Part shown: piece by piece, positions 1 through 33,218 of the stretch | Layout: every line of letters starts with the position of its first letter | Numbering within the stretch: position 1 is the first letter of the stretch | Assembly: GCA_017506865.1 (NCBI GenBank) | Contig: JAFCMP010000527.1 | Coordinates: forward strand, 186,001-250,000 | Reading direction: 5' to 3' | Origin: Tribonema minus | Lineage: Eukaryota; Sar; Xanthophyceae; Tribonematales; Tribonemataceae | DNA length: 64,000 bases | Notes under the pieces: generated by a model | The model's database searches: none | The model's input: the letters and a program-made list of their open reading frames with translations, nothing else | What the model was told of the DNA's origin: nothing | Program-made: the position numbers and the translations under genes

Positions 1-3000
1 CTCAGTGTGCACCTTCTCAAACTGGCTGTAGGAGTTTGTGATGTTTTTGACCCCCGAGTGCAGCATCATCGCTGCTAACTCTAGCAGAGCCTGAGCCTCG
101 CCGAATCGACCGGTGGCTTTGAGTTCAGCTACGTACTTGCAGAGGCTGGTGCACCACGAGGACCTGCAACTGTATGCACCGAAATGAGGGATACCTAGAT
201 TGTACCTGCCAACGTCACGTATGCCAACTCTGAGCTGGTCGGCTGTGACCCTCTGATTAGAGTAGGATGGGAATCCGACGCAATAATCTGGTACGTTCCC
301 ATACATGATCTCACGCATCGCCCGGCAGACGAACAGCACCGTGAGGTACATCCGCGTCATGGCCGCCGGGAGTGGCACGCTGGTCGGAAGTGGCCCGTCG
401 CTGTCACGCCTTGCGCCGACCTTCTTCAATGTGGGCTCATCGATGCTCTGTTGCGTGACAACAGCAAGGCAATAACAAGTATACTGAGACCGTCTAGTGA
501 CAGTCACTGTGAATCTGGAGGTGTTCACAATAGCACAGAGCAGATGCAGGTGCACTCGATGCTGCAGTGGCTAAGCAACATATAGCCATAAATTAGCACA
601 CATACCGCATGTAGCCTACGCACATACATGACATTGTGCGCAAGCAGGCCATGCACGCCATGGCTGTTGCCATTGCTCACCTGACAGAGCCGGGGATGCC
701 CGTTCTGCATCTTGACGGCGTACACCAGCGAAGCTTTGTTGTTGAACAGCGCCTGAGGTCGCACCGGACTGTTCACCAGCACAAAGATGTGCGCGAGCAG
801 CTCCAAACGGGCCACATCATTGATCGTGAAGCCAGAAGTCTTCAAAAGCGCCTCGGCCAGGAAGTGTACCCAGCGCACGCGCAGATGCTCTCCGGTTTGT
901 GCTGCTGGTTTACCTCTGATGTTGATGAGGATGTTGACGAGGCTGCTCTCCTTGTCGAGGCTGTCGAAGTCGTCAAATGACATATTGCTCATCTTGAGGT
1001 AGCCGGCGATGGCGCTCTCGAAGACGTGCCAGGTGCGCCGAAGCATGGAGTCCATCATAGTCGCAAACAGCACGCCAGCATCCTGGTCCGGCGGCAGCCT
1101 TCCCATCGCCACCATCCGCCGATCCCTGATCTTGATGGAGAGGGACGCTGTGAGGTCGGTGCGCTTTTTTCGCTGCCATGATGCCTGCTGACTCTTGAGG
1201 GCATCGAGGTACTTCCTGATAGCGAGCCCGGTGTGGTGCCTGTGACACCAGAATGTGCGTAGCAGATTAAGCGCTTCACTACAACAGCAGTGCGACGCTC
1301 ACACAAGATGGCTTACACAGGCTGGACATCATGCAAGGGGGAGCAACTTACCGTATTGTGTCGTATGTGTACACGGCCTTCTCGTTGATGGCATTGACAG
1401 TGGCTTCCACATACTCGTTAGCTCTTCCCTTGTCCATGGCCCGGAAGAGGACCTCGACACGGCTCAACTGCCATTGTTGAACGCCAATCTCGCACGTCTC
1501 CAGGAGCACAGTGAGCGAGCGCGGAACCAGTTCTTCGATGTCGGGAGGGGGTGGAGTCGCAGCGATGGTGCTGTTGTAAGCTGACAGGCTGACGACGTTG
1601 GAGCAGCGGTTGGAGACGTTTTGCAGCTCCTCTCGGCTGAGCTGTACACAGTTGGAGGCACATGTGGGCAGTCGCCCCAGAGTAGCTGCGGTGCTGAGAC
1701 ACTTGACGCAGTCGTTCACCGGGATCCCGGCGTTGCCGCCGATGGTGTCTCCGGGGCTCTTGAAGAGGATGAAATCGTCCAGCAGTCTCCACTTCAGTGC
1801 TGGCCAGCAGAAGCTGAGGTACCTTGACAATGTGTCGAGGTCGGTGTCGCCGTAAGAGTGGGTGCGCCACAGGAGCTCCTTGCATGTGACCGCCCTGACA
1901 ATCGCTTGTGCCAGTCCATGAGTGCGAGGCAACGCACCAGCAGCTACGCCAGTCCCGTCGCGCAGTATGTTGACATTTTTGTCCTTGTACTTTTCAGGCG
2001 TTGAGCGGTGTGCGCCCTTGCACTTCGCCAGCTTGATGGGGTCCGTAATGAAGTCACGGAAGACGAGCACCCCCTCAAACCAGAGCGCCGCCCTCTGTCG
2101 CAAGTAAATTCTCCATGCCTCCCCCACGGACATGACACCCTGCCCGGGGGCAGCAGACCCCAGCACTTCGAGGAAGTGCATGTATCGAACCATCTGTGTG
2201 GCAGGTGCCGAACTGTTGCGAGAAACAGCAGCAGTGCAATGGGTATGAATGTCAGTTGTGGCGACTTGAGCGGGCGACTCGCTGAAAATTTTGTGCAAGT
2301 TGATCCGATTGAACGATCTGCATACTCACCTAGGAGCTCTGCGTTTCCTACTGGCGGTGGCATGAGGTGCTGGTGCATCGGGCGCACTGCGTTCAAGGCT
2401 CCTGTGCGACGAAATCAGCAGTGAGAGTGGGAGGAACGTCAGTTGTGGCGACATGCGCTGGTAGCGAGGAGTATGGTGAGTCAATATTCTCACCTGGGAG
2501 CTCTGCCTCTTTTTGTACTCGCGGTAGCAGGAGGTGCTTGCGCGCTGGGCTCACCGCGTTCACTGGGTTCAGGGCTCCTGAGCACGACAAAACAGCGTGA
2601 TGTAAACGGCGTACATGTCAGCAGCTTGAATGCGACTTGTCTGCGAACCACTAGCCAGCACCTGCCATGCACTCACCTTTGCATGACTTGAACTTCCTCT
2701 ACGAGAACCCAGCTGCCGCGTGTTACAGCCTCACCGTCAGGACCTTTGTCTGTCATGAACATCCTCGTGTCCAGGTCAAGCCGCAATGTGCGGTGAGATG
2801 TGTGCGCGTGCCTCTCCTTGCTGATCTCGGCTGAAAAAGTGAAGACGCCAGAGGCTGCAGGTGAGGCAGAAGGGGCTGTGGTAGCGTCGTCAGCTTGGTG
2901 GCTCTTGAAGGAGAGCAGTTTGCACAGCAGCCAGGAGCCGCAAGTGGAGTGCGAACACATACCACAGGTGCTGCATGTGGTGGTGTTGCCGCACCGATCA

Positions 3001-5047
3001 CACTTGCGCTGCGCACACCTGCAGCTGCACTCAGCTGAGGTGAACACCCATACATCGCTGCCCCTGCTGTTGTGCCCGAAGTCGGCGGGCACGAATGAAG
3101 CAGGTGCTCGCATGGTTGTAAGCTGTACCGCACGCGCTACTGCCGGTGCTGTTGGCGATGTAAGAGCTGCCAGAGCTGCAGTAGCGGGGGAGCCGCTGGC
3201 GCTGCAGTAGCGGGAGCCGCTGGCGCTGCAGTAGCGGGAGCCGCTGGCGCTGCAGTAGCGGGAGCCGCTGGCGCTGCAGTCGTGGGTACCGCTGGAGCTG
3301 CATTAGTGGGTGCCGTCGGAGCCGCAGCAGCGAGAGTCGCCGGAGCTGTAGCATTGGGTGGTGCTTGAGCTGCACTGCTGAATGCTGTCGGAGCTGCAGT
3401 AGTGGGAGTCACCGGAGCCGGAGCCGCCGTAGATGTGGACGCAGTAGTTTTGGTGGCAATGTGTTTGTTGTACGTCACCTTGAACAGTGTGCCCCCATTG
3501 CCACCAGCAGCCTCCATCGACACCACTACCCCTCCTCCCGAAAGCCGTGTGACGCCGCCGAGTTTTATACCTGCTCCTAATGGGTCGCATGGATGGCATG
3601 ATGAGTTGAGGCAGCGCACGTCGTCGTCGTCTGTCGGCTGTGCTGTGCAGTATATAGTGCGCCCGTCTTGTGTCTTGCAGAGTACCTGGGTGTGAGTTGC
3701 TGATTTAGTCCAGGATGTCTGCGAGCACGGCAACAGACATGCAATGCATCGGGCTCAGTCATCGGCCTTATGTGACCAGCTCATACAGTAGATTGCATAC
3801 AGGAGGCGATGAGTGGCCTACTAACCTCACGAACGAGCAGGTTCTCCAGGTACAGAAATGTCTGTCCGTTGCCCTGGCTTGTCGCTGCGGTGCTCGGGGC
3901 AGTATCATCGTCATCGCTGTCACCTGCCTCAGGCTCGGCAGTGCTGACAACCTCACAACCAGACCGCAGAGCTGAGACTTCCACCGCCCTCCGCGCTGCC
4001 GCAGCCAGCTTCTCCTCGTGATCTGGCACAGCTAGTGACGTCTTCTGGCCTTTGCCTACAATGTCAAATGCCTGCATGGGCACAGAACGACCGAGGCAGA
4101 GAGTCAGCGTGACGTTCGGCAATGTGAGTTGTGCTGCCAACCAAGTACTGATATCATGGCAACAGGTTAAGACATGTTGATCATCACGTACCCGGGTCAT
4201 GGTGCCGCGTTTCTTGTGTGCACGTGCAGCCAGAGCGCTCGCTGCGGTTCCCATAGCGGCGCTGATGGCCTCTGCAGCAGCGGAACCGCCGGTAAAGTCG
4301 CTGGTGTCCGTGCCAGCAGCTTCAGTGACGCAGAGCGATGCGATGAGGAAGAGCCAGATGACATTGCGGCGATGCTTGCAGCCAGGCATACCTACGTTGT
4401 CGAAGAAGCCGGTGTTGTAAGGGAGGCTGATGACAAATGCAGACATTGCGATCCACATGTGCTCCACCACAGCAGTTGTGGCTATGTAGGCACCTGGCGC
4501 CATGACGACAGTTGATGTAAGTATGCCAGTGCATCCGCAGGTGCACTTGAGCCAGTTGAAATGAAGCGCCTGTGATAAGGTGGCAATAAGGTGGCAACAA
4601 AGCTCAAGCGGTTCAGGTAAGGCTTGACATGCAACCCGCGACTGTGACTCATGTGCTTGCGTGTGAAGGCCAACGCATTCATCACCTCATGTGCAGCCCT
4701 CTCAGCCTTCAGGCGGGGGCCCAAGCGATGCCGCGTTGCTGCGCGGCCCAGCTTGATGTGCTTCTTGTGACGAGGGCGCTGTTAAGCAGCAGCAGTGGCG
4801 ACAAGACACGCGTGTGAGACAGATGTCTTGGAAGCCTGCATGACACTGAGATATCACAGGTTCCCCTGACACTGTTGCTTACCTTGGCCCTGGCGCTTTC
4901 AGCTCTGGATTCCTTCTCTGCCTTGCGCAGTGCACGTCTCTTGCTCTTGCTAAGGCGCCTGGCTCTGTTGGCGTTGGGAGTGTCCGTCAAAGCCTGTGAC
5001 AGGCGGAGCTGTGCGGCGCGAATGTCAGCTTGATAGCCATGCATATA
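1..5047 (-). CDS. Large multi-exon gene with tyrosine-recombinase-like C-terminus (partial, 3' end beyond window)
   Basis: Eleven exons can be joined in phase: 5047/5044-4883, 4778-4629, 4569-4392, 4319-4188, 4133-3826, 3685-2677, 2577-2494, 2401-2330, 2212-1352, 1239-681 and 447-1, giving at least 1,320 codons. In order the product has a very basic N-terminus, a hydrophobic segment with a CTCGC cluster, an acidic run (GDSDDDD), an Ala/Pro/Thr repeat linker, and a Cys cluster (CSCRCAQRKCDRCG). The C-terminal part resembles tyrosine recombinases: a candidate first Arg in SPVRPQAL, a YSCRSSW box in the place of HxxR, LHS in the place of the second His, and Tyr in TNSYSQF. Recombinases of this kind cut and rejoin DNA through the Tyr. 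The fit is by pattern only; no close relative was recognised. The exon at 3685-2677 carries two surplus bases in its repeat, so this allele may be broken. The splice between 4629 and 4569 (a 59-nt intron) is weak. Confidence 0.5.
2250..2605 (-). repeat. Tandem exon duplication
   Basis: Two adjacent copies of about 180 bp each carry one short exon (2577-2494 and 2401-2330) and the intron sequence before it. Shared blocks include GTCAGTTGTGGCGAC and the AGAGCTCC(C/T)AG donor end. Both exons begin after two bases of a codon and end with two bases of a codon, so both can be retained without a frame change. The peptides are related and low-complexity: SPEPSERGEPSAQAPPATAS then KRGRAP, and SLERSAPDAPAPHATASRK then RRAP. 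Confidence 0.7.
3178..3430 (-). repeat. 24-bp coding minisatellite (Ala/Pro/Thr linker)
   Basis: About ten units of 24 bp. The four at the low-coordinate end are near-identical (GCAGTAGCGGGAGCCGCTGG core); the rest are degenerate. On the minus strand they encode AAPAAPAT-like repeats inside the 3685-2677 exon. The unit at 3186-3190 has five G where its neighbours have three. This shifts the frame, and the downstream Cys-rich coding frame resumes only if those two bases are discounted. Confidence 0.8.
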
Positions 5048-5049
5048 CT

Positions 5050-5350
5050 ACCACAAATGTAAGCAATTGCTCATACTCTTGGTAGTGCTTGTATATGCGG
5101 TACATTTGTGGCAACATTGGCAATGTTGCAAATAACACGGTTGTAAGCAGCTGTTTGTATTCTTGGCAGTGCTTGCACACGTGGTACAGTGGCGGCAATG
5201 CTGGCACCATGATCCGTATGAAATGCCACAAATGTAAGCAACTGCTTGTATTCTTGGCAGTGCTTACCACGTGTTACAGTGGTGGCAACGTTGGGATTCG
5301 TTTCAAATGCCACGAAGATAAGCAGCTGCTTGTATCCTTCGCAGGGTGGC
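5050..5350. repeat. Tandem repeat of about 87 bp, three to four copies
   Basis: The core TGTAAGCARCTGCTTGTAT, followed by a TTGGCAGTGCTT-like block and then GTGGCAA/GGCGGCAA, recurs near 5056, 5142, 5231 and 5317. The spacing is about 86-89 bp, with moderate divergence between copies. It lies just upstream of the first certain exon of the neighbouring minus-strand gene, in its 5' region or first intron. Confidence 0.7.
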
Positions 5351-5516
5351 ATGTGAAGGCAGATCAATGAAACGCCATTCCAGTCAACCAAAGCATGTAG
5401 TAAGTATATTTTTGCCAATGATGTGCAAGCAGAAGGACGTTGAGCGCCTTCTGAAGAGGATGTGATTACGTTTCAAGTAAGGAGATGGACCGAGGACTCT
5501 ACCGCACATTATCAAG

Positions 5517-7013
5517 TTACCCCTTCTCTTCATCAGTGACACATGACGCACAGAGCTCCTGAAGAACGTCTGGCAAATTAACTAACTCAAACTGTGGAAC
5601 GCTAAGCTCATCTCTCCAGTAATACAAGGTGCGTGTGTTCTCTACATACACATCATGTGCCGACAAAATGGAGAACTTCAATGGAGTCACTCTCTCCTTA
5701 TCCCAGTACATGATCAATACATGGTCACACAGGTGAACCGCTGGGTATTTACCCTTCTTGAAGATCCATCCCTTGAAGTTACCGCTGTCACTGTCATAAT
5801 GCAGAGTCGCTGTTTTGACTGAGAAAGTCATCATCACGCGAAGCGTTGGAGCACAGATTGCGACATCAATGGTTTCATTCTTCCGGGCAGGAAACACAAT
5901 GCTCATACCAGCCGGAAGCCGGGAATAAACTTCCCGTATGTTGCGTAGCTCCAGCTTCTGCGTCTTATACATATTGGAGTTGAATTCCTCGCTGAAAATG
6001 CACTGCTCCCACGTTGGTGCGTTTGCCAACTGCACTCGCCGCTCCATTTCAGCAACAAATTTAGAAGCCATATCATCGAAGTCACCGCTGCCCGGCACAG
6101 CACGGTATCCTTTGAATGAGTCGTCACTATTGCCTGCAATTGGTGTGAAAACCTTGGTCTTGATACATGACACATCCCCCACGAAAAATACCTCCTTCAC
6201 AGCATCCACATCGCACCGTGGTACATCAAAAATGTTGAGCGGTATGTGTCTGGAGGTGTCTGGACGGATGTATGCGATGCACAGCACATAGTGACCATAA
6301 TACCTCTGTCCCACACCACCATCGCTACTCTTGAGGTGAAAATCCATGTAGCATTCACGCACCCACTCAGCTGTTTTGATCTGCACCGGGGTCCATTTAC
6401 CTAGGTGATGCAGTGCCTTGGGTCGGACGAGAATGTCTACAGTATTGCCGTCATATGCAAAGTCAAACTCGAGGGCTGCAAATTGCGGAAGTGCGAAGAG
6501 GGCCATGACTGACATGGCCTCATCCAAGTTCATCTGGCCTAAGTTCCGCGCCAACCGTGTAGTATTGCGCTGCTGGTTGGTCAATGCTTTCTCAGTGTCA
6601 GTTCTGTTTTTAGCGGCTATGACACCTCTTCTCAGGTTACCATATGCAGGTGTCGGAGTAAGGTCTGCGTGGAGAAACTTGTTGTTGTACATGAACTTGC
6701 TCTGTGACAAGAAGTACTACAGCTGTTTTGCCTCATCATCAAGTAGAGGCTTCCTCTCATAGTTCTTCTTGAACCACTCAAGGTAATCTTCTGCACTTGC
6801 ACCCTTGCAAACTCCCTCAATCCTCCTTGAATCATACCTGGCATTGTTGTCCTGATTCTTTTCAGCCCTCGTTTTCTTGGCAGTGCCTGGATTGGCTGTT
6901 GGAGATGATTCAACAGAGCTCCTTTCACGCTTGAGCTGCTGCTGTGCTATATCAGCGATGACACTCATCATTTCATTAGCGTTATCGCACACGGGCTTCG
7001 AATTGACGTTCAT
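5517..7013 (-). CDS. Protein with two PD-(D/E)XK nuclease-like modules, interrupted by one in-frame TAG
   Basis: Starting at ATG 7013 the frame is open to 5517 except for a single TAG at 6717-6719: 98 codons, the stop, then about 400 codons in the same frame. The N-terminal part is Lys/Glu/Ser-rich and probably disordered. Downstream, LEFDFAYDG, TVDILVRP and WTPVQIKTAEW fit the beta-hairpin of PD-(D/E)XK nucleases, with the acidic residue in VDILVRP and the lysine in QIK. About 190 residues later a second, weaker module has ETIDVAICAP and MTFSVKTA. The family cuts DNA and is common in phages, giant viruses and mobile elements. No intron is needed. It may sit inside an intron of the recombinase-like gene if the 7267-7097 exon belongs to that gene. 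The TAG could be a nonsense mutation, read-through, or the boundary of two ORFs. Fold assignment is from motifs only. Confidence 0.55.
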
Positions 7014-7096
7014 GGTAACTAATGTGTGTGACGGTTCACTCCTTTGCGTTGACAACACTATATTTTTTCATGTAATTTTAGCACGCTCAGTCTCAC

Positions 7097-7267
7097 CTGA
7101 GCCACAGATGTGGGGCTTGAAGGCCAACAAGTCATCCCACGCAGCGCAAATGGCGTCGCCAGAATGATGAACAGTACATACACCAGAAGTCGGGGTAACG
7201 CGTTTTCATCTCGCAGGAAGGCAAATATGGTGGTTGCTGCGATGCCCCAGCCAGATCCAGACACCAT
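7097..7267 (-). CDS. Candidate exon with a transmembrane segment
   Basis: This 57-codon open segment begins with ATG directly after a TGCTGCAG acceptor and ends at a CAG/GTGAGA donor, in phase 0. It contains the hydrophobic stretch LLVYVLFIILATPFALRG. Because it ends in phase 0, and a TAG/TATATG acceptor at 5048-5050 also opens in phase 0, it could be the first coding exon of the recombinase-like gene. The nuclease-like ORF and the 87-bp repeats would then lie in one 2.05-kb intron. It could equally belong to an unrelated small gene. Confidence 0.35.
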
Positions 7268-8493
7268 CTGCAGCACTGTGCATAGTTGAGAGCAGCAAAG
7301 AGCAGTGATCATGCTTGTCGACAGCAGGTGGGTAAATCATGTATGGGTAGCTCGAGAGCACTTGATCCACAGCTAAGAGACAGACACTGCAGCAGCAGGT
7401 GCTTCACCGACGCCAGCACTAGCAGCCACCATAGTTGGATGCCACCTGGAGCAGGAAGCAATAGGCACTCTGCAATATGGGTCGCACACTGCAGTGGTGC
7501 TGCCGGAAGGGTCTTGCTGTCGGCAGCAAAGTTCAGCTCGACAGGTACTAGAGCGAGAGCATGGCTTGAGGACTGTGAAAGTGAAGATTGGTCTTGAACT
7601 CACCCCGTGTTCCTGACGCTCAGCTGTCAACGTGTCGAGCGTTGCGCCTTGGCGCACGATCGCCGATGGCTGCAGGCGGGCCAATTATGCGCGAAGGCAG
7701 CAGCAGGTCAGCCACCGAGGCATGGCGTGTATCGCCGGCGATGCAACGGTGTGGTTATATTCATGGCAACACAACGCGCACACTCGCCTGTATTCCCCGG
7801 ACGTTAGCACGCCGCCGGCGTTGATGTCCCAGCAGTGTACGATGCAGCGCTGTGGTGTGGGGAGTGCAGCGTGTCGCGCGTCAACTCTCAGGAATGCACC
7901 GGCATCAACCGCTATATTTCGCGCAGGTCAGTGTGTCGCAGCTGACTCGCCAAGAGTTGACGCCCCAAAGTCTTCTTAAAGTCTCTTGAACACAAGAGGT
8001 TCCGCAAAGTTCAAAAGGCAATCTTCTGAAGCCTCGAGAACTGTACATGTATGCAGCTGCAGCCATGCAGGAAGCAGCGGGCCGGCTACTGTGACTGTCA
8101 AGAGTAAGGTCGCACGTTAGTCATTTGGACCGTTCAAAAAACGGTTCATCACCAGCGTTGCTATAGACTGCTCAGGCACAGCGTTCTAACCGCATCCCCC
8201 CACCTGCAGGGCTATAGGTGGTCAAGATTGGCGAACTTTTCATGTAGCAGGGCAGAATATTATGGAATTAAATTGTAAATCTTTCAAAAGAAGGTCAAGA
8301 TCAAGAGTCAAAGATCTTCCGAACCAAGTATTGTTGTTTTTTGTTGAATAAAAAAAAACTAGGGGGGGGGGGTTGGGGTTACTGTAAGTAGTTGTGTCAG
8401 CCAGAAGGCAGCTTTTTGCACTGCAGCGTGGATTGCGTAGTGGATCGGATTGAGCAGCCATTGTTGGCGCTGTGCAGCTGGTCGGCGCTCATC
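7268..8493. other. Intergenic region
   Basis: No gene recognised. A donor-like CACGGG/GTGAGT near 7602 on the minus strand could mark a 5' untranslated exon leading to 7267. Close to the PPR gene there is an A-run (about 8350) followed by a ten-base G-run (about 8363-8372). Confidence 0.4.
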
Positions 8494-10281
8494 ATGTGGC
8501 GGCGCGTTCTCGGGCAGCTGCACTTTTCATCTGGACATGCTGCCTGGCGGTCATTGCAGCGGCGTCATTTGCACAGGGCGCCGCTGCGTTTACCAAGGAT
8601 CAGTGCTCTTGTCAGGTGCGTTGGCCACAGCCACATTGACAACGGCCTTGTGGCATCTAGAGCAAATCTGTGCAGTCAGCGTGAGGATGGCCCGTTGGAG
8701 TCGGAGATAGCTCTAACGACCTCAGCACCTGTTCAAGGGCGAGCCTGTAGCAGTGGAAGTGCCAACGACAACAGCAGGAGCAGCGGTGGTAGTGGGGGCA
8801 GCAATAACGGCATCAGAAGCGGCGGCAGCATCGGGGACAGCAGCAGCAGCAACAGCAGGAGCACCGGTGAGCATCGTTGTAACAAGGCCGTGAGCCTTCC
8901 CACAGATGTTCGTCCAGTGAGGGGCGTCCTGCGGGATGCTGCTGCACATGGGGATCGTGAGCACGCGCTCAGCGCCGTGCGCAACCTGCAAAAGGCTGGC
9001 GTTGCCGCTGTGCAGGATTGGAGCGATCGTGTGCAAGCACTGGTTAAGACAGGCAATGTTCACCGCGCGGTGTCTTATCTCTCCGGGCTCGTCGAGCGAG
9101 GGCACCAGCCCAACATAAACGCTTTTCATTTCGTCCTGGAGCCCCTGAGTCGGAAGAGGATATTGTCCACTTCACTGATCGTGGTGGCACTCATGCGGCA
9201 GTGCGGTACTCCGCTAGACACAAAAGCGTACCACTACGCTCTCGGTGCGTGCGGCGGCCAGCACGCCATGCAGCACGCCGACCAGCTGCTGCGCGAAATG
9301 AAGGCGGCAGGCGTGGCTGCTGATCAACACACCTTTGCTGCAGCTGCTCACGCTTGCATTGTGTCGAAAAAATGGCAGCGAGCGCTTGATCTCTTTGCTG
9401 AGATAGAGGCAGACTACCCCCATCTGGTCACTGTGGGCATGTGGAACCGCCTGTTGCGCGTCCTCATCCGTACGGGCCAACCAGAGCAAGCAATAGCAAA
9501 GGGCGCAGAAATGGTGGAGCGCGGGCTTAAGCTCAACTCAGAGACATTCTCCTATTTGCTGGGGGCTCATGCGAGGCTTGCTGATCAAACTCAGATAACA
9601 GCGTTGACCTCCGCAGTGCGGGCTGCGGGTGTGAGAGTGACGCATGCCTGCCGCTTTCAGATCATAGAAGGCTATGCTCTAACCGGGCACTTGCAGCTCG
9701 CAGAGGAGGCGCTAGAGGCGGCCGTTCAGAGTGGTCAAGCTCGGCCAGACATGATCATGGCCATAGTGAGCGGGTGCAGGCTCGTAGGGGATGCATCACG
9801 CGCACAGCGCTGGCTGCAGCGCTCGCTGTCGCTAGGCCTGACCCCAAGTGCAGCGACATGGCACATGGCCATCGAGACGGCGCAAGAGGGTGGCGATGAG
9901 GGTGCGGCGGATGCGCTGTGGCACGATGCGGAGGCAGCAGGCGCCCTCTCCTTTTACAAGGTAATGCGGAGGAACAAGGAGGGGGTGCTCATTGTGGACC
10001 TCGATAGAACCTCCGTGCTGCGCCAGCCACTCAAGTCAGCACTGGACGTCAGTCGCTGCAATGTGGTGCTGGCGCACGCGGCGCTGCGCGCAGCAGCGCG
10101 TGAACTAGCACAGATGCCGCCGCCTGCCATCAGGTACATTTGCACAGGGGCATTCAATCCCAAGCAGCATGCAGCTGCAAAGGCCCTTGCTGAAATCATG
10201 CAGGATGCTGGCGCTCAGGTATCAAGGGAGGCAGGCACCGGGGGCTTGTGGAAGGTGACGATGCCACGTAGAACACGGTAA
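8494..10281 (+). CDS. PPR protein with SMR-like C-terminus, organelle-targeted (predicted)
   Basis: Single-exon gene of 595 residues from ATG 8494 to TAA 10279-10281. The frame is open further upstream, but only from a TTG. The N-terminus (MWRRVLGQLH) is Arg-rich and lacks acidic residues for about 50 residues, as in mitochondrial or chloroplast presequences. A Ser/Gly/Asn-rich linker follows (about 85-135), then about nine PPR-like helical pairs (about 145-480), for example AYHYALGACGGQHAMQHADQ. The last 80 residues (LDVSRCNVVLAHAALRAAA onward) resemble a degenerate SMR domain. PPR proteins bind organellar RNA and act in processing, stability or translation; PPR-SMR members can also affect transcription. 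The target cannot be read from this sequence. Two paralogues lie on the minus strand at 56.4-62.1 kb and share the C-terminal YKxMRRNKxG region. Confidence 0.8.
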   Translation: MWRRVLGQLHFSSGHAAWRSLQRRHLHRAPLRLPRISALVRCVGHSHIDNGLVASRANLCSQREDGPLESEIALTTSAPVQGRACSSGSANDNSRSSGGSGGSNNGIRSGGSIGDSSSSNSRSTGEHRCNKAVSLPTDVRPVRGVLRDAAAHGDREHALSAVRNLQKAGVAAVQDWSDRVQALVKTGNVHRAVSYLSGLVERGHQPNINAFHFVLEPLSRKRILSTSLIVVALMRQCGTPLDTKAYHYALGACGGQHAMQHADQLLREMKAAGVAADQHTFAAAAHACIVSKKWQRALDLFAEIEADYPHLVTVGMWNRLLRVLIRTGQPEQAIAKGAEMVERGLKLNSETFSYLLGAHARLADQTQITALTSAVRAAGVRVTHACRFQIIEGYALTGHLQLAEEALEAAVQSGQARPDMIMAIVSGCRLVGDASRAQRWLQRSLSLGLTPSAATWHMAIETAQEGGDEGAADALWHDAEAAGALSFYKVMRRNKEGVLIVDLDRTSVLRQPLKSALDVSRCNVVLAHAALRAAARELAQMPPPAIRYICTGAFNPKQHAAAKALAEIMQDAGAQVSREAGTGGLWKVTMPRRTR

Positions 10282-28559: not shown

Positions 28560-31048
28560 CTACGGAGGGGCCGGCGGTTCGGCGCTGGCCGGCGAGGGCC
28601 GCGGCACTTGCAACAGTGCGATGCGGCGGTAAGCGCTGACGTCGCCATCAGGGGCAATGACTGCGTTCCAGTTGTCGATCACGACACGTGTGAGCGCGCG
28701 CTGTAGCGCGAGGGAGGTGCGGCGGCGCCAGAAGGCAACGCGCTGCGCGAGATTGTAGCTGCCATGCGAGCTCTGCTCGGCGAGTGCGTGTAGCAGCGCT
28801 TGGGTGTCGCGTGACATAGCGCCGAAGTGGTCAAAGGCTGCGGAAAATAGGGTGTGTGTAGTGGGGTCCAGGGCCCCTGAGACTACGTATGTGTCTATCT
28901 TTTCCTGCGAAGCCGATTCAAGCACGCGCTGCACATCGCGCGCGCCCCCCTGAGCCTGACGGAGGCGGGAGGGGCATGAGCTGTCACGTATGGTGACGTC
29001 TATGCAACAAGCTACTTCAAAGCCGCCGCGCAGTTTAGTGCACCGGCCTGCTGCTACCGCGTCGGCGCTCGGCTGCACTTTAGGGACTGGAAGGCAGACC
29101 TGGTTGCTGCCAAAGACGATGTCCATGAACTTGTTGAACCCGTGGCGCGCCGCGTAGCGGCGGAAGGGGGCAAGGGTGTCCCGGTCGAGACCGCGGAGGT
29201 GGGCCACCTGCTTGAGCAGCTGAAAGAGCGCGTCTGCGAGCAAGTTGTGTCGCGGGACGTTAAGCCCTTGTGTGCAGCGGCGCAGGTGGGCACCCAAGTC
29301 CACTGGTCTATGGCACTTGGGGCACCGCGCCGCAGCGGGGGCGGGGCGCTCCACGCCCAGGTGGCGCCGCAGCGTCTCGCGGAATTCCGGCGGGGACATG
29401 GTCTCCGCTGGGTCAGTGCTCGGCAATTGCGCCAAGAAACCCATGGCCCCCTTAGAGGCGCCGCTGCGCCACGCCGCGACTGCTTCCAACGCATTTGCTG
29501 CTTCAAGCCGACGCAGCTGCGTGGCGGCGAGCGCTGCGTCTAGCACCCGTGATAGCGCCGCTTGACGCCGCGGCAGCACGGCGGCCGGCGGGGCCTGGGC
29601 AGAGCCTGGCTCGCGCGCCACCGCTGGCGCAGCAGCGCGGCGCGCGCCGGCGCGAGTCCGCATGCCCGGCCCCGCAGCTCCGCCTGCCCGTTGCAGCAGA
29701 TCGCGCAGCGCCCGCCATGCGCCGTCGTCGTGGCGCCAGTCCTGGTACCAGACCGTGGGCAGGAGCAGTGCGAGGGCCGCTGCAGCCTCATCGCTGCCGC
29801 TGCGCAGCTGCTGCAGGCAGGTAGCTATCTGGGTGAAGGTGAAGCCATAGCGGGCATGCTCTAGGACGCGGCTGCCCGTGCCGCGACTGGAAATGCCGCC
29901 AGTGCCGGCCCCATGCACTGAGTCTCGAGGGAACGTGCAGCAAATGCGGCACATGCACGGGGCGCCGCGCCCAGCACGCCAAAGCCACCACTCCCCAGCC
30001 GCAGATGCACGCGTACCTGCTGATGTGCTGGTAGCGTCACTGGGGCCTCGCCACCCCAGTCGGCGCCGCGTACCCATGCCACTGCCGCCGCCCACAGAGA
30101 GGGCGGCGCCGCCGCCGCCGAAACCGCCGGCGGGCCGCAGCAATCGTCACCCGCCGCCGGCGCGCCCTGGTGGGCCGGCGGCGTAAGACCCGCCGATGGC
30201 TCCTGCGCCAGCGCGGCCACGGCCGCTAGCGTGATGGCGTCGAAGCGCCGTAGCTCCTCGTGCGTGAGGGATGGCGCTGTATTGCGCGAGACATGCCCTG
30301 CGCGGGCGGGGACGGCAAGACGCAGAATGGAGAAGGCAGCCTGCACATCCTCCATCTGCACAAGCTCCGCTACCAGGCGGTCGGTGCCGGGGGCACGAAG
30401 GGTCGCCGCCACTTGCGCGCGCACGAAGCCCTCGGTGCCGACCGGCACCCCCATCAGCGTGATGCCGTCGTCACATACTGGTACGGGGACATTGGCGGCG
30501 GCAAAGACGGCGGCGGCGCGCTCGCGGGCACCGCCTGAGGCCGGCACCAGCGCCGCGCATTTCGTGACGTTGACCTGAATGTTGAGCTCGCTCAGCGCCT
30601 GTTATATGAAGCAGAACGCGCGGCCAACGTGGCCGAGCACCGGCGCGTCACAGCTGGGCGTCATGATGGTGAGGTCATCGAGGTAGCCCGGAAGCGCCAG
30701 TTGCGGGAACTTGGCGCGGGCAGCCACCATGGTGCCGCGCAGTGCCAGCGCGAACAGCAGCGGCCCCAATGGGTCGCCCTGCTGCACGCCCTGTTGGGAG
30801 AGGATGATGGCGGCGTCGGCGTGCCCATCTAGGCCAAATTGTAGCCAAGGGGCCCGGCCGGGGCCGTAGATGTGCTCGACGTAGCCGTACAGGCCAGGCA
30901 GATGCTCGGCCACCGCGGTGAGGACTGCCGAGCGCGACAGCGCGTTGAAGGCATTACTGCCGTCAATGGCAAGGAGCACGCCGTTGCACTCATGCGTGAG
31001 CTGCGCCATGAGCGCCACTCTCTTTGCGCCCCCCCGCGCGCCGACCCC
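28560..31048 (-). pseudogene. Element 1 ORF2, 3' part: RT motifs, zinc finger, RLE-like nuclease
   Basis: From 31018 leftward: RT motif A (LLAIDGSNAFNAL), motif B (GVQQGDPLGPLLFALAL) and motif C (GYLDDLTI, with LDD as the catalytic pair). An in-frame TAA at 30600-30602 follows, then continued coding (LVPASGGARERAAAVFAAAN) to 29861. The frame then changes to that of 30143-28560. This last part has a CCHC-like finger (CPKCHRPVDLGAHLRRC), then RHNLLADALFQLLKQ, FMDIVFG and CCIDVTI, which fit the PD-(D/E)XK endonuclease of RLE retrotransposons. The nonsense codon and the frameshift are direct observations; the nuclease call is from spacing and the D...DVT pattern. Confidence 0.7.
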
Positions 31049-31564
31049 TGTCGGAAGCGAAGGATCTAGCAGGAGTCTCCAGCAAGTGACCAGGCAGGAG
31101 CAAGGGCACGAGGCAGGAGGAAGAGAGACTCCGGCTTGGCCGTGTGTAGAAGAGAGAGTGAATTGATGGGAGTGAGGCGACCTTCCAAAGTGCCGAACTC
31201 CAGAGAAGCCGAGAACTCCGGAGAACTCAAGAACTCTGTAGAACCGGCCTGATGCAACTGGCCGATGTGGGCCGAACTGTAACTACAAGTGGCCGATGTC
31301 ACAATCTCAAGTTCAACTTCCTACTTCAACATGTACTTGAAGTTGACCAGCAAACTTCAACATGTACAGTTCAACCTGCTGGTGAACCCTGCTACTGCTG
31401 AGCATCGCTACGCTACAGGATAGCGCACCCAGTCATGACTCTCCTGGGGATGGGGGCATTTCACCGCTCTTGCGCACACACTAGGATGACAGCAGCTCTT
31501 GCTACAGCTGCTGCGGTATGCTACACTAGACTCATGTGAGGGTGTACATGACCATATTCCGACA
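31049..31564 (-). repeat. 3' LTR of the gag-only element
   Basis: 516 bp, TG...CA ends, and preceded in element orientation by a purine-rich tract. By eye it is identical to the other LTR across its full length. Confidence 0.92.
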
Positions 31565-31640
31565 CCCCCTCTCGCACTCAGCATGAGTCTTGGCTACTGC
31601 ACATATCCTGGAGCCCCCTCTGGCTCTGACGTGGCTCACG

Positions 31641-32480
31641 CTAGAAGCCTACGTTCGGTCTAGGCTTCGTACCTGGTGTGCGGCCCTGAGCCTGGCACTC
31701 GAGATCAGAGTGCGACGTGGACTTGTGGTATTCGCACCACTTGTCTCCCGATGGTCTGGACCTGAGTGGGCACGCATTGGCCTTGTGCCCCTTCCTCTTG
31801 CAGTTGAAGCAGACAGGATTGCCGGTGGCGAGCAGTGCTGCGTCGTCGGGTGGCGGTGCGGTGGTGATACGCCGGCTGTAGAACGCCCGAATCTTGTCCT
31901 TCGTCTCTTCGTAGGTGAGGTTGTCGGCGGAGTCGAGCACAGTGGTGAGCTCGGCGTAGGCCTCCGGTAAGGCGTTGATGGCGATCCCGATGAGCCAGTC
32001 ATCGTCGATGTTGCGGAGGTTTTCCCAGTAAGAGAGCTGTTTGACGACTTCGTTGACCTTGGTGAAGAGCTCCTCTGGGTCTTGAGAAGGGGTGAGCTTG
32101 ATCCGCATCAGCTCGCTGAGCAGCTGTATTTTCTGTGCTCTGGTCTTGGTCTCGTACCTGTTGAGAAGTAGCTGCCAAGCTTTGTTGCCCTGGTCCTCAG
32201 GTGCTTGTGAGACGACGTTGAAAGCTGCGTCGCTGACGTTGGTGATGATGAAGGTGTAGGCGGTGCTGTTCTTGGTGTCGAAGCTGGCTCGTGCACTTGG
32301 TTCAGAGGGTGGCGCTGTCCTGCCGACCATGACGTCGTACACGTCGATGAGCTTCATCCATGCTGTGAAGCGTAGTTTCCAAGGCGTCCATGCCTCGTTC
32401 TTGCCGTCGAATGGTAGTCGTGGGATTCTCGCAAGGCTCTTGAAGTCCGTTGCCGATGAAGTCTCCCCGCTATCTCCCAT
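31641..32480 (-). CDS. Gag polyprotein (UBN2/DUF4219-like) with CCHC zinc knuckle
   Basis: 279 residues from ATG 32480 to a stop at 31641. The N-terminal part (RIPRLPFDGKNEAWTPWKLR) and middle (AFNVVSQAPEDQGNKAWQLL, then RYETKTRAQKIQLLSELM) match the Copia gag family UBN2/DUF4219. A zinc knuckle, CFNCKRKGHKANAC, follows at about 222-235 with the exact C-x2-C-x4-H-x4-C spacing. The family packages retrotransposon RNA into virus-like particles. The frame is intact, unlike the surrounding retroelement. It ends about 75 bp before the 3' LTR, which leaves no room for pol. Confidence 0.9.
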   Translation of the reverse strand: MGDSGETSSATDFKSLARIPRLPFDGKNEAWTPWKLRFTAWMKLIDVYDVMVGRTAPPSEPSARASFDTKNSTAYTFIITNVSDAAFNVVSQAPEDQGNKAWQLLLNRYETKTRAQKIQLLSELMRIKLTPSQDPEELFTKVNEVVKQLSYWENLRNIDDDWLIGIAINALPEAYAELTTVLDSADNLTYEETKDKIRAFYSRRITTAPPPDDAALLATGNPVCFNCKRKGHKANACPLRSRPSGDKWCEYHKSTSHSDLECQAQGRTPGTKPRPNVGF

Positions 32481-33218
32481 GTCGCTCGCTGACGAAGCCC
32501 GTTAGGCGTCCACCTGTATAGGGCGAGCACTGTATGGAGTCTTGTCCGAAGATCTCGCTAGCCGCTCCCCTGTGTAGGCCGAACCCTGTGTAGAGCCTCC
32601 GCTGCGTCCTGTATAGGCCACTCCTGTGATGTAGGAGTCCTGTGTAGGACCTCGTTGCTGGTGCCGTGTTGAGACGCTCGCAGGTCAGGTCAGACCTTCC
32701 CTATTCCCGCTGCTCCTGTCCGAGGATGCGCGCAGTACTGTCCCTGCAGCTCCCGTATACGCGCTACCAGATCTCGTAGTCGTTCTGCTACGCCGCCTTC
32801 TGCAAGGTGTTCGACCTACTCCAACCTGGCAGGTTCGCAGCCGTTCGCGCTAAGGCGCACACTCGCACCAGTCGCAGTGCGCGTGTGGAGAGCCGCAGCA
32901 GTGTCTCACCAAGGGGGACTTGACAGGTTTCGAACCTCAGTGCCGCCCTTGCGTGGTTTGCCCGCGCTCTGTGAACCCACACCACACTACTCTGTGGAGC
33001 TAGGCAGGAAATGCCAGTATTGGACGTACCACGGGGTGGTTGCAGTCCAGGCCAAGCTGCTCACCTGTAGAGTGATTCGATGCAGCTGATTTGTTCTCGC
33101 ACTGGTGCTGTGCGGATTGAGCCGGCTCCAAGCCGTGCACTTGACTGTGCAGATTTGATGACGCACTGGTGCTGTGCGGACTCCCTCGCTGATGGCTCCT
33201 AAGCTGTCGGTGTGACCA
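32481..33218 (-). other. 5' leader of the gag-only element
   Basis: About 740 bp between the 5' LTR and the gag ATG. It starts with a candidate primer-binding site (TGGTCACACCGACAGC), does not match the plant-type initiator-Met consensus, and holds no convincing ORF. It presumably carries packaging signals. Confidence 0.5.

Follow-up and report, generated by a model that had tools for sequence, protein, structure and literature searches.

Tyrosine recombinases (YRs) carry a catalytic arginine, an (H/K/Y)xxR motif, a histidine or tryptophan, and a tyrosine nucleophile, in that order along the protein. Among the eukaryotic elements that depend on such enzymes, Starships are much larger than 9 kb, carry the YR gene first, and encode a captain YR that corresponds to DUF3435. 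Cryptons are YR-only DNA transposons; many Crypton groups have short terminal direct repeats, some encode a C48 peptidase, and most of the YR DNA transposons described so far come from fungi, oomycetes, and animals (PMC3212892). For green algae, PAT-like DIRS elements are reported, and the word Crypton is missing from the main text of the Chlamydomonas comparison (PMC8226300, PMC3266345). Endogenous giant viruses of the alga Ectocarpus use a YR integrase (PMC13236599). Finally, Fanzor/TnpB proteins occur in eukaryotic transposons and giant viruses, and a methyltransferase role has been proposed for them (PMC3627910).

The locus studied here lies in a window of 64,000 nucleotides from the xanthophyte Tribonema minus, which comprises bases 186001 to 250000 of contig C524 in an assembly of 158 Mb and 554 contigs. 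Positions 1 to 8014 of the window, together with ~1 kb to the left of it, form a single dispersed repeat of ~9 kb (~9.0 kb at the C524 copy). This repeat contains two genes, both on the minus strand: a recombinase-like gene with many exons and, upstream of it on the shared strand, an intron-free open reading frame that we refer to as ORF2 (Table 1). We interpret the element as a Crypton-like YR DNA transposon of ~9 kb, one old lineage of which carries a double PD-(D/E)XK nuclease related to genes on giant-virus contigs, and we put the probability of this reading at roughly 0.7. A preliminary description of the locus had placed it at positions 1 to 7267, which proved too short: the right end lies at 8012 to 8014, and both the element and the recombinase gene leave the window leftward. 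Its suggestion of a YR-based mobile element holds up in the dispersed unit, the fixed right end, the copy-number variation, and the associated nuclease gene, while the YR fold itself is unsupported. A single fixed locus, constant in boundary and copy number, would have spoken against mobility; within this genome, copies and flanks vary.

Table 1. Features of the element in the window (positions from the first base of the window; strand and basis where given)
Feature	Position	Strand	Basis
Right terminus (5' end relative to the direction of the two genes)	8012-8014		Copy ends with differing flanks
5' non-coding region of the element	7017-8012	-	Conserved among copies
ORF2, intron-free, two PD-(D/E)XK-type modules	5517-7013	-	ORF and family alignment
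Nuclease module 1, catalytic set E...D...QxK	6375-6521	-	E, D, and K in 21/21 rows; Q in 19, E in 2
Nuclease module 2, catalytic set E...D...SxK	5814-5951	-	E, D, S, and K in 21/21 rows
Four imperfect repeats (family D2), 84-91 bp spacing	5046-5349		Between ORF2 and the recombinase gene
Recombinase exon 1 (start ATG)	4883-5044	-	Spliced model; identical peptide in the C4 copy only
Recombinase exon 2	4686-4778	-	Spliced model; peptide matched in the C4 copy only
Recombinase exon 3	4192-4569	-	Spliced model; 79% C4, 35% C110
Recombinase exon 4	3826-4071	-	Spliced model; 88% C4, 47% C110
Recombinase exon region 5-6, 24-bp repeat array and Cys-rich Zn-finger-like segment	2677-3718	-	Spliced model, copy matches
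Recombinase small exon 7	2494-2577	-	Splice signals and frame only
Recombinase small exon 8, resembles exon 7 by eye	2330-2401	-	Splice signals and frame only
Recombinase exon 9, core domain preceding the catalytic region	1352-2212	-	Peptide 1351-2208, at least 68 genome matches
Recombinase exon 10, YR-like box I SPVRPQAL	681-1239	-	Motif and copy alignment
Recombinase exon 11, YR-like box II AYSCRSSWCTS, LHS, catalytic Tyr candidate NSYSQF	1-447	-	Continues left of the window

The right end of the element agrees to within 2 nt in six copies with differing flanks, including the one on C524. Matches extend to position 8014 in the copies on C4 and C130 and to 8012 in those on C24, C529, and C537, with unlike DNA beyond. 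Five near-identical copies (C49, C255, C260, C362, and C74) are truncated, matching to position 8002 and also ending in TTC; four of this set were read, and because all four have a flank of their own in common, the truncated copies look like segmental duplicates. A portion of the 5' non-coding region, at ~7613 to 8012, recurs by itself at C24, C537, C529, and C130. Reading of the left end in C529 and C130 showed that these copies start TTGGTGCTCC. A 21-mer from this end has two exact matches in the genome, which are these two copies, and two more with three mismatches. At C524 the left end could be placed only to ~100 bp (contig positions ~184966 to 185064), where the similarity to C4 overlaps that to the neighboring LRR-gene repeats. 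Virus-like features, namely a dNMP kinase model and ankyrin repeats, are found at C524:176001-179656, 5 to 9 kb left of the element.

In C529 and C130, which were read at each end, no target duplication was visible by eye in the 20-bp flanks (2/2 copies), and no inverted repeat between the first 100 bp at the left and the last 30 to 45 bp at the right rose above shuffled sequences. Imperfect repeats of the form CG[CT]AAA..TTC near both ends were convincing by eye as terminal direct repeats, but a shuffle test put them at chance level within a copy (2110 and 1105 of 5000 shuffles).

The copy on C4 matches the window from 3641 to 8014 and then stops. Its identity to the C524 copy is 98 to 100% from ~4.65 kb to 8014 and ~79 to 98% to the left of ~4.65 kb (200-bp bins), and because of this mosaic we consider that a right-hand block of ~3.4 kb was probably exchanged recently between C4 and C524. 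The C4 copy spans 21.4 kb and contains two insertions (~3.1 and ~9.3 kb), one of which splits exon 5; by coordinate arithmetic, it measures ~8.9 kb without them, against the ~9.0 kb at C524.

The recombinase gene begins at the ATG at position 5044 and runs on the minus strand past base 1, leaving the window at its left edge; the glutamine-rich tail of exon 11 lies in the adjoining leftward stretch (L031, 9323 to 10000). An in-phase chain of exons had been proposed for this gene, and the peptides of exons 1 to 5, of the Cys-rich Zn-finger-like segment, and of exons 9 to 11 each have a counterpart in one or more further copies within this genome, so that the chain is supported independently of splice-site guesses. 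The Cys-rich segment, at 2676 to 3116, is matched in C4, C529, C525, C110, C510, and C157. In the C524 copy the reading frame shifts inside or beside the 24-bp repeat array, near 3164 to 3451, and by coordinate arithmetic the flanks of this array share one frame in C4, C529, C525, and C110. Together with a premature, in-frame TAG in ORF2 (6719-6717), which is absent from C4 and C110, this frame shift leaves the C524 copy broken in both genes.

ORF2 extends on the minus strand from an ATG at 7013-7011 to a TAA at 5519-5517. As the preliminary description had recognized, this same-strand, intron-free frame contains two nuclease-like modules: the E...D...(D/E/Q/S)xK core set of the PD-(D/E)XK superfamily is present twice, the E-to-D spacing is 28 residues in both modules, and both motifs are conserved in all 21 rows of the family alignment. 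These rows are the window sequence plus 20 ORFs drawn from 30 loci, with the C4 row near-identical to the window. Outside the alignment stand the window's own locus, five truncated copies that occupy six loci, one duplicate, one ORF interrupted by a stop, and L027, whose ORF is full length and was omitted on no particular ground. When the two modules were compared with hhalign, E/E, D/D, and K/K fell in register, at a pairwise E value of 0.013 and a probability of only 3%. Searches of ORF2 against Pfam, PADLOC, and PDB sequences returned no match of weight. A single-sequence AlphaFold model had a pLDDT of 31.8, too poor for use, and a Foldseek search with this poor model gave a best E value of 0.13 and no nuclease fold at the top.

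The recombinase family is numerous, with at least 68 genome matches for exon 9 and at least 58 for exon 11. Locus counts were based on 54 of the 68 exon-9 rows, after removal of 14 second pieces; on 45 of the 58 exon-11 rows, after removal of one second piece and of 12 weaker rows (E values of 3e-9 to 9.5e-4); and on 39 of the 45 ORF2 rows, after removal of 6 second pieces, the 45 ORF2 matches amounting to 39 places once pieces are joined. From the 54 exon-9 and 45 exon-11 places we obtained 39 loci at which the two exons share a strand and lie within 8 kb of each other. At 3 of the 39 ORF2 places (C524, C4, and C110), a recombinase match lies within 15 kb in the same orientation as ORF2, and no more appear within 30 kb. 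None of the 31 distant loci of the ORF2 family has a same-strand recombinase match within 30 kb; at two such loci, C109:19002 and C112:1642095, a match lies within 20 kb on the opposite strand. The C110 copy is 54% identical to the window copy in exon 9 and 66% identical in ORF2, and because this pair has diverged so far, the pairing of the two genes is old. The ORF2 sequences of C524, C4, and C110 form one group with 99/99 support in a tree that was midpoint-rooted for drawing only.

Both the recombinase gene and ORF2 are under purifying selection. For the recombinase, dN/dS was 0.11 to 0.43 in 16 of 17 exon comparisons, the synonymous sites being saturated in the 17th; pS was below 0.6 in only 9 of the 17, and the comparisons with C110, C510, and C157 (0.58 to 0.77) are near saturation. 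For ORF2, the comparison of the window copy with C110 gave a dN/dS of 0.11, at a pS of 0.71.

The best-surviving alternative to our reading concerns ORF2, which might be a viral gene that landed by chance in one ancestral copy and is no working part of the element. Only 3 loci have both genes, against 39 recombinase loci with exons 9 and 11, and ORF2 has no match in C529 (7.0 kb) or C130 (6.1 kb), the copies for which each end was read. The distance from exon 9 to the right end is 3,965 bp in C529 versus 5,804 bp in C524, a gap that by coordinate arithmetic fits the absence of the 1.5-kb ORF2 from C529. These counts, along with the broken ORF2 of the C524 copy, speak for a chance arrival; it is at odds with the open frames of 516 codons in C4 and C110 and with a non-synonymous difference between the window copy and C110 of 0.21, near the 0.24 to 0.30 of the recombinase exons, at the low dN/dS given above. 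We consider a chance arrival unlikely and take the putative ORF2 nuclease to be an accessory function kept by selection in one lineage.

The minus-strand motifs listed in the preliminary description (SPVRPQAL, YSCRSSW, LHS, and NSYSQF) belong to a multi-exon gene as it had proposed, and in an alignment of six copies, 2 of them partial and with 41 to 95% identity to the window, R160 (VRP), Y278-S-x-R281 (YxxR), and Y326 are invariant. R160, YxxR, and Y326 follow one another in the window protein in what we take to be the order of the tyrosine recombinase boxes. The box-II His position is occupied by Tyr, and the second His, before Y326, is H in four of the six copies and N or Q in the other two. 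R160 and R281 are separated by 121 residues and R281 and Y326 by 45, the latter spacing exceeding that known for bacterial tyrosine recombinases. A first, tighter YR regular expression, which fitted the window, recognized none of 10 real integrases and was abandoned. The generic YR pattern that replaced it, which was loosened with the window sequence already known, fits 5 of the 6 copies, 10 of 20,000 shuffled versions of the window protein, none of 144 other ORFs, and only 4 of 10 real phage integrases. On the strength of these motifs, the gene quite likely encodes a tyrosine recombinase.

The competing view is that the element is a DNA transposon whose enzyme belongs to some other, unknown class and has a motif order that merely mimics a tyrosine recombinase. 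This view draws on the lack of profile or fold support for a YR. Profile searches had been proposed as a check in the preliminary description, and searches of Pfam gave no credible match for either gene; nor did the recombinase have a credible profile match in Pfam, PHROGs, or PDB sequences. PF00589 found 13 weak places over the whole genome, none of them at recombinase loci, and hhalign of the recombinase against 10 phage integrases gave no signal. A single-exon structure model (single-sequence AlphaFold) was poor, with a pLDDT of 40.7, and Foldseek with this model returned a best E value of 0.94 and no YR named among the best 50 of 118 matches. The replacement of the box-II His by Tyr, the variable second His, the chance-level terminal repeats, and the Cys-rich segment ahead of the core point the same way. 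What tells against another enzyme class is that R, YxxR, and Y are invariant and in YR order, that neither target duplications nor inverted repeats were seen in C529 and C130, and that the KDZ transposase model PF18758 gave a single, sub-threshold place in the genome, away from the recombinase loci; its absence from these loci led us to reject a KDZ transposon identity. We regard a different enzyme class as improbable and retain the tyrosine recombinase. Two further profile matches went unused: one to MvaI/BcnI in exon 9, which was weak (E value of 0.035, under the family cut-off), and one to DUF3311 in 2 of the 6 recombinase rows (best E value of 0.003). No domain of a DDE or other mobility gene was detected in the scanned parts of the element.

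Since all nine places matched by an NCLDV capsid model in this genome (9/9) exceed the cut-off, the genome carries giant-virus DNA. The 39 ORF2 places divide into 8 close and 31 distant ones, the latter with 25 to 34% identity. None of the 8 close loci is on a capsid-bearing contig; 21 of the 31 distant loci are, each within 600 kb of a capsid match, and the other 10 are not. Because 18 of these 21 loci sit on C112, C90, C179, and C21, which make up 3.3% of the genome (a share reckoned from these four contigs, with the other four capsid contigs uncounted), the concentration of ORF2 relatives on giant-virus contigs is strong. The neighbors of ORF2-family genes include RNase HII and a GH5-type cellulase. 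Searches of IMG/VR viral contigs with both genes, as single sequences and as alignments, found no relative. GC3 is 0.56 in ORF2 versus 0.69 to 0.77 in recombinase exons 9 to 11, and this lower GC3, together with the lack of introns, suggests that the element captured the nuclease gene from a virus, a direction of transfer that we offer as a proposal.

The preliminary description had also raised the possibility of a virus-derived block, and in its full form this would make both genes ordinary components of a giant endogenous virus. The location of ORF2 relatives largely on capsid-bearing contigs agrees with such an origin, as do the presence there of 8 of the 54 exon-9 places and the dNMP kinase model and ankyrin repeats to the left of the element. 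It conflicts with the remaining 46 of the 54 exon-9 places, which are on contigs without capsid matches, with a recombinase gene that is intron-rich and higher in GC3 than ORF2, and with copies that end sharply in differing flanks. The viral connection is partly borne out, through the relatives of the nuclease, and we judge an endogenous virus containing both genes to be very improbable. Least probable of all is a decayed DIRS/PAT-type tyrosine-recombinase retrotransposon that has lost its reverse transcriptase: Chlamydomonas and Volvox are reported to contain PAT-like DIRS elements, which belong to the YR elements (PMC8226300, PMC3266345), but no reverse transcriptase or RNase H match was found in the scanned parts of the element (the non-coding ends lay outside the scan), and C529 and C130, at only 6 to 7 kb, would leave little room for one beside a recombinase gene that alone takes ~5.7 kb in C524.

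For the Crypton-like transposon that we favor, a simple mode of action can be proposed. The recombinase would excise the element as a circle and, judging from its motifs and from insertions with no visible target duplication, would insert that circle elsewhere without duplicating the target. A nuclease with two active sites could cut both strands, and it may be directed at element-free DNA or at rival DNA, such as that of a virus, which might help the element to gain copies or to exclude competitors; cutting of this kind is the simplest use for a putative two-site nuclease here. A broader and more speculative scheme, which we put forward tentatively and hold to be doubtful as a whole, is that the double-nuclease family passes between giant viruses and algal YR transposons. 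In the virus, numerous copies would persist, diverged from one another yet intact; as a transposon gene, it would form part of a two-enzyme mobility system in which the nuclease cuts unoccupied DNA for copy gain, or it would act against incoming giant viruses.

The old, selected pairing of a YR-like gene with a two-site nuclease, in a genome where most distant relatives of that nuclease lie on giant-virus contigs, provides an example in which the sharing of genes by transposons and giant viruses can be tested, and it touches on the question of how cut-and-paste YR elements gain copies. Neither protein family has a credible match in Pfam or among PDB sequences, and both are therefore open ground for structure work.

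Among known systems, Starships resemble the element in being YR driven and carrying an extra gene. The comparison with them in the preliminary description nevertheless breaks down, as the element is only ~9 kb long, has its YR gene last, and has no captain model in its Pfam results (E values up to 10). Fanzor is a nuclease; Fanzor/TnpB differ from ORF2 in belonging to another protein family and to other transposon classes. The likeness to them lies in an accessory gene common to transposons and large viruses (PMC3627910). DIRS/PAT elements of green algae likewise encode a YR, whereas the element described here has no reverse transcriptase or RNase H match (PMC8226300, PMC3266345). The integrases of phaeoviruses also tie a YR to giant-virus DNA in an alga (PMC13236599). 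In that case, however, the YR serves as the integrase of the virus itself; in the present case the YR gene belongs to the element and is rich in introns, and what viruses share is the nuclease gene. Active Crypton-type elements reportedly feature in a study of new structural mutations in Chlamydomonas reinhardtii, so that a YR DNA transposon in a green alga is probably no novelty in itself. That study is cited in PMC13236599 where the text turns to eukaryotic mobile elements.

The closest likeness is to Cryptons, with which the element shares a (putative) YR as mobility enzyme, no detected reverse transcriptase, no terminal inverted repeats, and a second protein, which is reported for some Cryptons (PMC3212892). 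It differs from them in direct repeats that do not exceed chance, in a second gene that encodes a putative double nuclease, and in its ~9-kb, intron-rich structure; the likeness is one of layout, with the YR of the element deduced from its motifs and the YR sequences of Cryptons outside the comparison. Our literature search, which covered titles, abstract openings, and few subscription papers and in which the term PD-(D/E)XK was not searchable, found no YR element with a double PD-(D/E)XK gene. What is new here is thus the combination, a YR-type element of a known kind that has a double PD-(D/E)XK gene as its second gene.

When we compared window positions 3641-8014 with the copy of the ~9-kb element on contig C4, identity changed stepwise at ~4.65 kb, and a 3.4-kb right-hand block has probably been exchanged recently between the window and C4 copies. 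The 9.3-kb insertion carried by the C4 copy contains a 564-codon open frame within the portion read (C4:530001-536416, stretch L032).

At a separate locus, C537:270450-270660 (stretch L068), the element's right end occurs twice in tandem with a spacing of 131 bp, and both occurrences then run into nearly identical flank. To the left of the window's copy of the element, a repeated array of ORFs, NB-ARC-like and weakly LRR-like, occupies positions 3726-8447 of L031, a stretch of the window's own contig, C524. The 3' flanks of this array were found again on C524, C533, and C110, and they have up to ~120 bp in common with the element's left end.

The first part of the same stretch (L031 1-3656), just to the left of the window, contains virus-like open frames and looks like a giant-virus fragment.

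Features in the window and in the DNA to its left
Feature	Location	Strand	Remark
Long open frame with PPR repeats	window 8392-10281	+	directly past the element's right end
ORFs resembling retroelement pieces (gag-like, LINE-like)	window 28563-32501	-	resemblance judged by eye
Ankyrin repeats	within C524:176001-179656		virus-like open frame
Match to dNMP-kinase model PF21448	within C524:176001-179656		virus-like open frame
Kinase-like ORF, weak	within C524:176001-179656		virus-like open frame

Elsewhere in the assembly, NCLDV capsid genes scored over the cut-off at nine places, on contigs C90, C179, C112, C21, C223, C144, C485, and C40. Six of these eight contigs also carry members of the double-nuclease family (21 in all), and the capsid-bearing contigs probably represent regions of endogenous giant virus in which the nuclease genes form a paralogous family.
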